A DNA stretch of 64,000 bases from Desertimonas flava (GTDB taxonomy: Bacteria; Actinomycetota; Acidimicrobiia; Acidimicrobiales; Ilumatobacteraceae): positions 1 through 64,000 of the forward strand of contig NZ_QKYK01000026.1 in the NCBI RefSeq assembly GCF_003426815.1, in the 5' to 3' direction. The notes below the pieces were generated by a model. The model saw only the letters and a list, made by a program, of their open reading frames with translations. It was not told where the DNA came from and did no database searches. Every line of letters begins with the position of its first letter. Position 1 is the stretch's first letter. The translations under genes were made by a program, and so were the position numbers. Below are positions 161 to 33,760 of the stretch, in pieces.

Positions 161-1846
161 ATGGGCAGCGTGACTGACAGCACCGTGATCCGAGGCGGAA
201 CGGTGGTCGACGGCACGGGTGCGTCCGCCCGGCGCGCCGACGTGGCGTTCGGCCCCGACGGCCGCATCATCGAGATCGGCGAGAACCTGCGCGGCGATCG
301 TGAGATCGACGCCGGCGGCGCCGTCGTGGCGCCGGGGTTCATCGACATCCACACGCACTACGACGCTCAGGTGTTCTGGGATCCGGCGCTCACGCCGTCG
401 TGCTTCCACGGCGTCACCACCGTCGTCGCCGGCAACTGCGGGTTCTCGATCGCCCCGATCAAGCCCGCCGACCGCGAGCGCCTGGTGGCGACGATGGAGA
501 AGGTCGAGGACATGGACCCGGCCACGCTCACCGAGGGCGTCACGTGGGACTTCGAGACGTTCCCGGAGTACCTCGATGCCGTCGCCCGCTGCCGACCGTT
601 GCTCAACGTCGGTGCCTACGTCGGTCACACGCCGGTGCGCATGCACGTGATGGGCGACGAGGCGTCGGAGCGCGAGGCCACCGCCGAGGAAGTGGAGGCG
701 ATGGCTGCGATCGTCGGCGACGCCATGGCCGCCGGTGCCGCCGGCTTCGCCACCAGCTTCGGGCTGCTGCACCGCGACGGCGAGGGCCGGCCGATCCCCA
801 GCCGTTTCTCCACTCGCGACGAGGTGGCCCGTCTCGCCGGCGAGGTGCGCCGGGCGGGTGCCGGCGTGGTCGCCGTCAACGGCGGCGAGGGCCTGTCGTT
901 CCGGGAGCTGTACGAGTTGCAGCCGGAGATCGGCGTGCCGATCACGTTCACCGCCCTGCTCACCACCGACACGGGTGCCCACTGGAAGGGGCTCGAGATC
1001 CACCGGGCCGGACGCCAGCAGGGCATCGGCGTCTACCCCCAGGTGTCGTGCCGGCCGCTGACGTTCTCCATGTCGATGCTCGACCCCTTCACGCTCAACA
1101 CCAACCCGGTGTTCGCCGAGCTCTTCGGGCGTTCGGTCGATGAGCGTCGCGCCGCCTACGCGGACCCGGCCTGGCGGCAGCGGGCGCTCGACTACTGGCG
1201 CGCCGGCGGACCCAACACGCTGCCACCGCGCTGGGCGGCGATGAACGTGATGGAGTCGGCTTCACACCCCGAGCTGTGCGGTCGCGGGTTGATCGACATC
1301 GCCGCCGATCGGGGCGTCGATCCGTTCGACGCCCTGCTCGACATCACGATCGACGAGCCCGGCCTGGCGCTACGCGTGCGGGCCGTCGTGGCCAACGACG
1401 AGGCCGAGGGCATCACGACCCTGCTCAACGAGGAGGGATGCGTGCTCGGCCTGTCCGACGCCGGTGCCCACGTCGGCCAGCTGTGCGACGCGCCGCTGCC
1501 CACCGACCTGCTCGGCAACTGGGTGCGCGGCCGGAACGTGATGTCGCTCGAGCAGGCCGTGCACAAGCTCACCGGTGAGCCGGCCGGGCTGTTCGGGTTC
1601 GCCGATCGTGGCGTGCTGCGCCCCGGCGCCTGGGCCGACATCACGATCTTCGATCCGGCCACCGTCACCCCCGGTCCGCTGCGCCGCGTGCGCGACTTCC
1701 CGGCCAACGGCGAGCGCCTCACCGCCGATCAGCCCGATGGCGTCCGCGGCGTGTACGTGGCCGGCCAGCCCGTCGTCGAGGACAACACGATCACCGAGTC
1801 GGCCCGCTCGACCCCGCGCGGCCAGCTCGTCCGCCCCACCCCCTGA
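161..1846 (+). CDS. D-aminoacylase / N-acyl-D-amino-acid deacylase family amidohydrolase
   Basis: Metal-dependent amidohydrolase of 561 residues. The family hydrolyses N-acyl-D-amino acids or related cyclic amides in the cytoplasm. The N-terminal part has the beta-sandwich start (VIRGGTVVDGTG) followed by the metal-binding HxH at His64/His66 in PGFIDIHTHYD. A C-terminal GLSDAGAHVGQLCD block carries further metal ligands, and the end (ADITIFDP, then GVYVAGQPVV) returns to the sandwich. The length suits the family. A TACGGT -10 box 6 bases upstream supports ATG 161; an in-frame GTG at 170 is the alternative. It runs convergently toward fumarase with the DUF559 cassette in between. The true substrate cannot be told from sequence. 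Confidence 0.85.
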   Translation: MGSVTDSTVIRGGTVVDGTGASARRADVAFGPDGRIIEIGENLRGDREIDAGGAVVAPGFIDIHTHYDAQVFWDPALTPSCFHGVTTVVAGNCGFSIAPIKPADRERLVATMEKVEDMDPATLTEGVTWDFETFPEYLDAVARCRPLLNVGAYVGHTPVRMHVMGDEASEREATAEEVEAMAAIVGDAMAAGAAGFATSFGLLHRDGEGRPIPSRFSTRDEVARLAGEVRRAGAGVVAVNGGEGLSFRELYELQPEIGVPITFTALLTTDTGAHWKGLEIHRAGRQQGIGVYPQVSCRPLTFSMSMLDPFTLNTNPVFAELFGRSVDERRAAYADPAWRQRALDYWRAGGPNTLPPRWAAMNVMESASHPELCGRGLIDIAADRGVDPFDALLDITIDEPGLALRVRAVVANDEAEGITTLLNEEGCVLGLSDAGAHVGQLCDAPLPTDLLGNWVRGRNVMSLEQAVHKLTGEPAGLFGFADRGVLRPGAWADITIFDPATVTPGPLRRVRDFPANGERLTADQPDGVRGVYVAGQPVVEDNTITESARSTPRGQLVRPTP

Positions 1847-1848
1847 AC

Positions 1849-1923
1849 AATCTGGGGCCAGATCGTGCCATCCGCCCTTCCGGGGCGGGATCGTGACGAT
1901 TTGCGTCACGATCCGGCCCCAGA
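1849..1923 (+). repeat. Left inverted end with hairpin
   Basis: The outer 28 bases (1849-1876) are identical to the reverse complement of 2940-2967. Next comes a hairpin: GGATCGTGACG (1888-1898) pairs with CGTCACGATCC (1904-1914). The stem continues after one mismatch to GGGGC/GCCCC. An even wider pairing of TCTGGGGC (1851) with GCCCCAGA (1916-1923) closes the whole end. Confidence 0.8.
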
Positions 1924-1959
1924 CGGGCTGAAGAAAATCTCTTCCGGTTCGGCGTTCCC

Positions 1960-2892
1960 GTGACGCTCCGGGAGGGTGTGAAGCTGCACCTCGTCGAACC
2001 GTTCACCCGCCGTCACCACGGCCTGCTGACGATGCAGGCCGTGCTCGAGTCCGGGCAGTCGAAGCGCACGTGGTACCGCGCCAACGACTCGGGTCTGCTC
2101 GTCCCGGTGTATCCCGGCGTCTCCCGGGTGGTTTCGTCTCCAACGTCGCGTCTTCAGGCGATCCACGCGGCCGTCTTGGCGATGGGTGATGGAGCCGTCG
2201 CGTCGCACCGCACGGGCCTCGAGCTCTGGGGCGTCCCCGACCTGCAGTTCGATGGTGTCGACGTGATGTTGACCCGGCGCCGTCACCCGGTCGTGCCGGA
2301 CGGGATCGTGGTCCACCGGCCGCGCGACCTGATCGACATCGCGCCGGTCTGGCGGCACGGCATCCCGGCGAGCAAGCTGCTGCGCGGTCTGACCGACCTC
2401 GGGGCGGTCGCGCCGGATCGTGTGCACGCCGCGGTCGGACACGTCCTCACCGAGCGGTTGGCGTCGGGCGCCGCACTGTACTGGGCGACGCGGGCACACT
2501 CTCGACAGGGGCGGCACGGCGTCGTCGCCCTGCGCGATGCATTGCACGAGTGGCTCGTCGACGGCAAGGTGCTCGACAGCGACCTCGAGCGGGAGATGAA
2601 CAAGGCCCGGCGCCGCCACAAGCTCCCGCCGATGACGTTCCACGCCATCTGCGCCGGCTACGAGGTCGACTGGCTCGTCGACGGCACGATGGTCGTCGTC
2701 GAGTGCGACAGCCTCGAGTACCACGACAAGCGCCGGGAGGACTTCGAGCGCGACCGCAAGAAGAAGGCCGACCTCGCCGCCGCCGGCTACCGCGTCGTGC
2801 CGATCACGTGGCGCCAGCTGACGCGTCAGTCGAAGTGGATGGCGGCCGTCGTGCGCAGCGCGATCACCGCCGACACCGCGACCGCCGTCTGA
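1960..2892 (+). CDS. AbiEi-like winged helix plus DUF559 (Vsr-like) endonuclease-domain protein
   Basis: Protein of 310 residues. The first ~60 residues (LLTMQAVLESGQSKRTWYRA, then LLVPVYPGVSRV) look like the helix-turn-helix of AbiEi-type antitoxins. The middle follows the AbiEi-like layout (HRTGLELWGV, then VVHRPRDL). The end is a DUF559 domain of the Vsr/PD-(D/E)xK fold: Asp237 in VDW, then Glu248 and Asp250 in VECDSLEYH, then a basic helix, AGYRV and ITWRQL. This pattern suggests a nuclease, but activity and DNA target are unknown. The start is GTG 1960; GTG 1978 and ATG 2029 are alternatives. It is the only gene between two inverted hairpin repeats. Actinobacterial genomes often hold many such proteins annotated only as endonuclease-domain proteins. 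Confidence 0.8.
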   Translation: MTLREGVKLHLVEPFTRRHHGLLTMQAVLESGQSKRTWYRANDSGLLVPVYPGVSRVVSSPTSRLQAIHAAVLAMGDGAVASHRTGLELWGVPDLQFDGVDVMLTRRRHPVVPDGIVVHRPRDLIDIAPVWRHGIPASKLLRGLTDLGAVAPDRVHAAVGHVLTERLASGAALYWATRAHSRQGRHGVVALRDALHEWLVDGKVLDSDLEREMNKARRRHKLPPMTFHAICAGYEVDWLVDGTMVVVECDSLEYHDKRREDFERDRKKKADLAAAGYRVVPITWRQLTRQSKWMAAVVRSAITADTATAV

Positions 2893-2967
2893 TCCGGGGC
2901 GTGATCGTGACGATTCTCGTCACGATCACGCCCCAGATCGGCGGATGGCACGATCTGGCCCCAGATT
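2891..2967 (-). repeat. Right inverted end with perfect 18-bp hairpin
   Basis: An inverted copy of the left end. The hairpin at 2896-2934 has 18 perfect pairs (GGGGCGTGATCGTGACGA against its complement) around a TTC loop. Stem bases differ from the left copy but still pair, so the structure is conserved more than the sequence. The repeat overlaps the stop codon of the DUF559 gene by two bases. Confidence 0.8.
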
Positions 2968-2969
2968 CT

Positions 2970-4610
<1,641 letters not shown>

Positions 4611-33727: not shown

Positions 33728-33760
33728 GGTAACAGATGGTGCCAGGCACCATCTGTTACC
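33728..33760. repeat. GGTGCC-A-GGCACC palindrome, 16-bp perfect arms
   Basis: GGTAACAGATGGTGCC (33728-33743) is mirrored exactly by 33745-33760 around an A. The arms differ from those at 21781 but pair perfectly. The right arm equals the half-site near the IS30 fragment at 103-117. It lies between the aminotransferase stop and the mtfA start, both leftward genes. Confidence 0.75.

Follow-up and report, generated by a model that had tools for sequence, protein, structure and literature searches.

REPs are dispersed palindromic repeats that lie between genes, near gene 3′ ends, and in the descriptions given by PMC2817692 and PMC3733652, two inverted copies of such a repeat flank the RAYT gene. 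According to PMC2817692, REPs number more than 100 copies. The CGTC-tagged REPs are palindromic gene-end repeats that, in the words of PMC3733652, "apparently lack a dedicated transposase". Inverted repeats also occur in the promoter of AbiEi, the antitoxin of a type IV toxin-antitoxin system, which is described in PMC3985639 as repressing its own promoter by binding them. In the open-access literature, as represented by titles and the beginnings of abstracts and with subscription papers outside this scope, we found no description of a system comparable to the one presented here.

We analyzed a 64,000-nucleotide stretch of Desertimonas flava contig NZ_QKYK01000026.1 (positions 1 to 64,000, hereafter the window), in which a cassette at 1849-2967 carries one gene between inverted palindromic elements. 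As in REP/RAYT units (REPtrons and REPINs), the gene lies between two inverted copies of a dispersed palindrome that is found at gene 3′ ends. However, the encoded protein is an AbiEi-Vsr-type fusion without a Y1 match and not a Y1 HuH tyrosine transposase (PF01797). REPs also have a GTAG head, whereas the elements here have a TCTGG tip, a half-site 28 nt outside the hairpin, and a consensus without GTAG, and element matches number in the tens, below the copy numbers of REPs. The CGTC-tagged REPs are similar in being palindromic repeats at gene ends, but the elements in this study end in TCTGG/CCAGA and have a candidate enzyme. With the EDxHD or Vsr-like homing endonucleases, represented by I-Bth0305I, the system shares the fold of the nuclease domain in a predicted model and the occurrence of both filled and empty sites. 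In contrast to I-Bth0305I, the protein has an AbiEi-type DNA-binding part, its gene is free-standing with no Rfam intron match in 1500-3500, and palindromes both flank the gene and are dispersed. Finally, about the first 200 residues match the AbiEi antitoxin, but a nuclease domain is fused on and the gene is not bicistronic with an AbiEii toxin gene; none was seen in the cassette, and the neighboring genes encode an amidohydrolase and a fumarase.

Architecture of the cassette and its protein

The left element is 75 bp long (1849-1923, forward strand) and consists of an outer 28-nt half (1849-1876) and an inner hairpin (about 1879-1923). The right element (2893-2967, reverse strand) is an inverted copy that starts directly past the stop codon of the gene, and the two 75-nt arms are 85% complementary. 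A 17-nt half-site, TCTGGGGCNNGATCGTG, first present at 1851-1867 on the forward strand, recurs at exact 28-nt intervals at 1879 (forward) and 1907 (reverse), with the mirror arrangement at 2893, 2921, and 2949 in the right end. A first-pass annotation of this DNA had described a perfect 28-bp terminal inverted repeat, and we found that 1849-1876 is indeed identical to 2940-2967 in inverted orientation. This was the only other match to the outer repeat in the window when up to three mismatches were allowed, and none of 100 dinucleotide shuffles contained two such matches. As that annotation also described, a single gene (1960-2892, forward strand; 310-residue product) lies between the two elements. 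It was the one gene recognized in the cassette interior, where further open reading frames overlap it in other frames, and the proposed 2-bp gaps to convergent stop codons were present on both sides. On the left is an amidohydrolase gene (Amidohydro_3; 161-1846, forward strand), with the last base of its stop codon at 1846, and on the right is a fumarase gene (Fumerase and Fumerase_C; 2970-4610, reverse strand, with a provisional start), whose stop codon begins at 2970. Between 1500 and 3500, no Rfam family reached its gathering score, and the five weak matches were to microRNA models far below it.

Both ends were also said to contain a hairpin whose stem bases differ between the ends yet still pair. 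This holds, and both hairpins fold far below shuffled sequences. Folded as DNA, the left inner hairpin (1877-1925) reaches −21.3 kcal/mol (z of −7.0) and the right inner hairpin (2891-2941) reaches −27.2 kcal/mol (z of −9.4), with none of 200 shuffles equaling either value. Among 27 aligned copies from the D. flava genome, many of which are close relatives of each other, 92.4% of the hairpin cells pair, 24 cells have changes on both sides (0 of 500 shuffles), and the covariation score is 0.123 versus 0.037 for shuffled alignments. Five pairs changed on both sides, a count matched by 43 of 500 shuffles. The outer half-site still pairs with the 3′ arm in 88.4% of the cells (covariation of 0.095), so that the half-site and the arms change together. 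Twenty-five of the 27 copies start with TCTGG and two start with TCCGG.

The window protein scored 19.5 bits against DUF559 (PF04480), just below the Pfam cut-off of 20.6, and the MTES_1575 profile matched it below the Pfam cut-off as well; two homologs exceeded the DUF559 cut-off (24.1 bits for L085 and 32.4 bits for L079). The N-terminal part matched AbiEi profiles (best E value of 3.9e-19), the C terminus weakly matched a homing-endonuclease profile (E value of 3.4e-4), and the nuclease domain gave profile matches to 3hrl (3.5e-8) and 3r3p (1.4e-3). In an AlphaFold2 model built from 35 homologs (pLDDT of 87.8, pTM of 0.66), residues 3-199 resembled AbiEi (6y8q; Z of 12.3 over 184 residues, rmsd of 4.5), and residues 207-307 resembled the catalytic domain of I-Bth0305I (3r3p; Z of 12.9 over 97 residues, rmsd of 2.7), followed by 3hrl (Z of 11.7) and Vsr (1cw0; Z of 9.3). 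Both programs used for fold comparison, VIA-align and Foldseek, give many weaker matches besides these. Acidic residues E210, D237, and E248 were invariant in all 35 aligned homologs, and H255 and D265 were kept in 30 of 35; these five residues may correspond to an EDxHD motif. The product is a probable DNA-cutting protein, in which an AbiEi-like DNA-binding part (residues about 1-200) is predicted to be fused to a nuclease domain of the Vsr/I-Bth0305I homing-endonuclease type (about 205-309).

Dispersed elements in the D. flava genome

When the left element was used as the query against the D. flava assembly (6.2 Mb in 73 contigs, 96.6% complete), at least 77 matches were obtained, with 40 of 69 first-look candidates scored. 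Merged by hand, the matches correspond to at least 40 places, a count that includes the two in the window and some partial ones. The element is therefore not unique to this locus, and copies do stand alone, which was one of the points that the first-pass annotation had proposed to check. About half of the places lie within a longer repeat of ~560 bp, and the remainder are mostly standalone. Of 14 standalone copies that we examined, a set without the two window copies, 20 copies attributed to the longer repeat, and four partial copies, 13 were intergenic and 13 had a gene 3′ end no more than 60 nt away. Copies from a relative, G009, were similarly placed (16 of 18 intergenic and 17 of 18 at most 60 nt from a gene 3′ end), with heuristic gene calls underlying the counts in both genomes. 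The first-pass annotation had regarded repeats at many gene ends with no link to DUF559, together with a gene present at the same locus in all relatives and no empty site, as evidence against its proposal. Solo copies do occupy gene ends, as REPs do; the gene family is nevertheless strongly linked to the repeats, as described below. Elements at gene ends could also serve as terminators, which we counted against the reading of the cassette as a selfish unit.

The longer repeat is MITE-like, with terminal inverted repeats starting GATTCTCAG..CGTC and a type-A element in its middle, and is present in about 17 to 20 copies (L008, L014, L021, L043, and other loci of D. flava, G000). The element of a distant D. 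flava paralog, on contig C23, gave 34 matches, distributed over 18 sites that include the two ends of its own cassette. We also observed elements of the C23 paralog in short tandem arrays at gene ends on C12 (L336) and C39 (L337), where dispersed elements occur on both sides of ordinary genes. The extra cargo genes between these paired elements were VOC/AraC-like and phosphofructokinase-like by inspection of their translations and were set aside as ordinary. Because the C12 and C39 pairs enclose such ordinary-looking genes, the nuclease gene is not the only gene found between paired elements.

We searched the 15 element-carrying genomes for the Y1 transposase family with the Y1_Tnp profile. 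One carrier, D. flava itself, has two Y1 genes, and the other 14 had no match to this profile, making a RAYT origin of the elements unlikely for these 14 carriers. No full element was present in the flanks examined of either D. flava Y1 gene. Near the Y1 gene on C72 is a weak 19-nt partial element match (E value of 0.002), and the Y1 gene on C8 (L270) is bounded by an inverted 17-mer, CAGGCACCATCTGTTAC, at 102-118 and 958-974. The window contains further copies of this 17-mer at 101-117 and 33743-33759 and one with a single mismatch at 33729-33745, which forms an inverted doublet. CAGGCACCATCTGTTAC apparently represents a distinct REP-like family of D. flava that has a Y1 enzyme.

Palindromes and cassettes in related genomes

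A profile search of the genomes of the family at an E value of 1e-20 found homologs in 38 of 101 genomes, at 55 places. For each locus, the 260-nt upstream flank was compared with the reverse-complemented downstream flank of equal length, and a score of 33 was taken as a pass (four thresholds tried give similar answers); this score detects any inverted repeat and not one defined element. The 60 loci examined were 52 of the 55 family places, 3 further contigs that were the only ones with a locus in a wider contig collection, and 5 more D. flava paralogs. Two of the further contigs, equal in length to contigs of G038 and G036, were removed as duplicates, and five loci truncated at the end of a contig were also removed, which left 53 testable loci. 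Inverted repeats bound 41 of these 53 homologs, including 28 of 35 close homologs (the window locus among them) and 13 of 18 distant ones, compared with 1 of 59 control genes from partly heuristic gene calls (36 window genes and 23 genes of two relatives). This difference gives a Fisher p value of 1.3e-18, in which related loci are not independent. Overlapping random positions in the window passed in 6 of 994 cases. Many of the genomes analyzed are fragmented and incomplete. The 12 homologs without inverted flanks at this threshold include a 74% identical paralog. Among further distant paralogs from four genomes of genus g10, 12 of 20 passed. Across a phylum-wide sample, 9 of 35 long fusions scored at least 35 compared with 8 of 987 positions; thus, the arrangement exists beyond the family but is not general there.

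Flanked homologs are usually bounded by a repeat sequence of their own and not by the element of the window. As to whether copies flank other DUF559 genes, which the first-pass annotation had asked, inverted flanks are far more frequent around these genes than around control genes but usually do not share one sequence. The two nearest D. flava paralogs also lie among such elements, which differ in sequence. The paralog on C72 is bounded by 87-nt inverted arms, and the paralog on C40 has, by eye, a hairpin downstream and a half-site upstream, which fell below the score and were counted as a miss. Several such genes per genome had been said to fit the proposal, and we found 9 matches in D. flava and 7, 8, and 9 in G009, G086, and G410, respectively. 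Homologs within single genomes sit at different places and have differing palindromes.

In the phylum sample, 120 of 296 genomes had a DUF559 match, short forms included. Six of 13 short stand-alone DUF559 proteins passed the flank threshold. Because the passing flanks of four of these six are the TGTTTCACGTGAAACA palindrome, which we take to be parS, this short class was not counted as support. We observed TGTTTCACGTGAAACA palindromes on both sides of short DUF559 genes at L164, L165, L166, and L167 (family f32) in 4 genomes. A different pattern was seen at L080 and L062 (G036), where several CACCCAGGAC-type repeats surround the nuclease gene, unlike the simple pair elsewhere.

Close homologs share features of element geometry. 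In this group, TCTGG occurred in 51 of 75 flanks versus 15.3 expected, and the commonest spacing of repeated 7-mers was 28 nt (13 of 75 flanks; next best, 7). Neither feature stands out in the distant group, with TCTGG in 8 of 36 flanks versus 6.1 expected and the 28-nt lag in 3 flanks. We did not detect codivergence of element and protein across 24 loci (Mantel rho of 0.06; 1616 of 5000 permutations were as high), which speaks against simple codivergence or may reflect a core that changes too fast, and the measure may saturate at low protein identity. With the G009 element and its flanks as the query against the 15 g10 genomes, G009 had at least 28 matches, the query locus included, and G074 had at least 27. 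The other 13 genomes had 1 to 3 matches each among the 28 candidates scored per genome, mostly to the flanking genes, and G048 and G406 had many diverged matches at a looser threshold with another query. When all candidates were scored for the element of G062, G062 itself had 17 matches, among them the ends of its own cassette, G407 had 5, G409 had 3, and the remaining 12 of the 15 genomes had none. Judged from these sequence matches, the type of element appears to go with its genome.

Filled and empty sites were found in g22, a sister genus with 24 genomes. One convergent junction is occupied by a homologous cassette in G055, G068, and G115 and, in part and at a contig edge, in G116. The cassette is absent from this junction in G101, G106, G117, and G118, where the flanks are 2 nt apart and 92-96% identical. 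The insertion splits overlapping stop codons with at most a few duplicated bases. Since both flanks need stop codons and TAG/TTAG could be selected, target duplication and selection are inseparable at this site. Two more g22 genomes with flanks about 1.2 kb apart were set aside, as the interval holds a beta-lactamase-like gene by inspection and no cassette. One standalone element is present in G068 and absent from G055; only its left border is clean, at a stop codon. G101, G117, and G118 have elements but no homolog at an E value of 1e-20, in assemblies that are 68, 80, and 62% complete, respectively. Inverted, REPIN-like pairs of the g22 element with a spacing of about 20 nt were observed in G101, G116, and G115 (L150, 1501-1627; L151, 259-385; L152, 1478-1604; and L149, 1484-1534), and their flanks suggest a common junction where G068 carries a single copy.

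Among the 15 genomes of g10, one junction contains the cassette in either orientation. G074, G404, G405, and G048 have the orientation of the query, G009, with a truncated gene in G048, and the cassette is inverted in G062, G406, G097, and G409, counts that leave out G407, G032, G408, and G411. The inversion could have arisen by recombination between the inverted ends or by separate insertions. At the same junction, G086 has 63 nt, which is not a clean empty site because an element-like remnant is kept, and G410 has 441 nt of other repeats, with the nuclease gene absent at that spot. A clean empty site for a standalone element in g10 was not obtained, as the intergenic flanks diverge.

A proposed REP-like unit and alternative explanations

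The checks that we ran were mostly favorable to the proposal of the first-pass annotation, a REP-like unit in which a Vsr-type nuclease replaces the Y1 transposase. We consider it reasonably probable that the cassette at 1849-2967 is a selfish, REP-like unit in which an AbiEi-Vsr nuclease takes the place of a RAYT. The sequence most likely recognized by the encoded protein would be the element that packages its gene. The AbiEi-like part would read half-sites spaced by 28 nt, and sequence reading by this part is plausible since AbiEi binds inverted repeats in its own promoter. The nuclease part would then nick or cut the palindrome at its tip (TCTGG/CCAGA), possibly in an extruded hairpin, and break repair or template copying would seed gene 3′ ends with solo copies and, less often, bring an entire cassette into a junction such as overlapping stop codons. 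Because the nuclease part resembles a homing endonuclease, copying by cutting and repair is plausible. We infer each of these steps, including binding, cutting, the copying route, and a role for the protein in driving the spread. Several results weigh against this reading: codivergence was not detected, three incomplete genomes with no homolog at the cut-off have elements, 12 of 53 homologs and most long fusions of the phylum-wide sample fall below the flank threshold, TCTGG and the 28-nt spacing do not stand out in the distant group, G086 keeps a remnant, target duplication is inseparable from selection, the border of the standalone element is clean on one side, and ordinary genes also lie between paired elements.

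Homing and plain autoregulation are the main rival explanations, and each leaves some of the data unexplained. A free-standing homing endonuclease gene with borrowed ends might cut cassette-free junctions so that repair copies the cassette in, with hairpins as landing or protection sites and solo copies as relics or by-products. I-Bth0305I as the best structural match of the nuclease domain, the weak homing-endonuclease profile match, the occupied and empty alleles of the g22 junction, and the use of one g10 junction in several genomes and both orientations are all consistent with homing. The classical form predicts one target and few copies, however, whereas element matches number in the tens in several genomes and the homologs of one genome occupy different places with differing palindromes. 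We regard homing as unlikely. If, alternatively, the palindromes were operators and terminators of the gene, the AbiEi-like part would be autoregulatory and the hairpins at other gene ends would be ordinary terminators, as might be expected from the described repression of the AbiEi promoter through inverted repeats (PMC3985639) and from the position of standalone copies at gene 3′ ends. Such a function would leave unexplained the presence of a downstream as well as an upstream copy, the dispersed similar copies, the conserved outer 28 nt beyond the hairpin, and the presence or absence of whole cassettes, and we find it quite improbable.

We also considered that another transposase moves the elements and that the nuclease gene is a passenger between two copies. 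D. flava does have two Y1 transposase genes, dispersed elements also enclose ordinary genes (phosphofructokinase-like and VOC-like, by inspection), and the longer MITE-like repeat carries a copy of the element. Against a passenger gene, 14 of 15 carriers had no Y1 match in a transposase search that covered the Y1 family, the two Y1 genes have nearby only the weak 19-nt partial match, with one of them bounded by a different inverted 17-mer, and the nuclease gene family lies between inverted repeats far more often than control genes. This explanation appears very improbable.

Returning to a REP-like unit with an AbiEi-Vsr nuclease, we rate the system as a new kind because the sole analogous system is defined by its Y1 enzyme, whereas the window protein has no Y1 match. 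If architecture is weighted over the enzyme, the system may instead count as a form of REP/RAYT. A broader interpretation, for which we see the chances as evenly balanced, is that of a second, independently evolved REP-like system, in which AbiEi-derived DNA-binding domains and Vsr-type nucleases maintain and spread their own palindromes, with several gene-element pairs per genome, in this Acidimicrobiia-like family and in some other actinobacterial families. The AbiEi-Vsr fusion may also be the missing enzyme for some palindromic repeats that lack a RAYT. If this is true, the pairing of a nuclease of a different fold with a gene-between-palindromes architecture would represent convergent evolution of a minimal selfish system and would suggest a function for the AbiEi-DUF559 fusions, an uncharacterized group. 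The question of what moves RAYT-less palindromes could then be tested directly, with a single protein and a 75-bp oligonucleotide.
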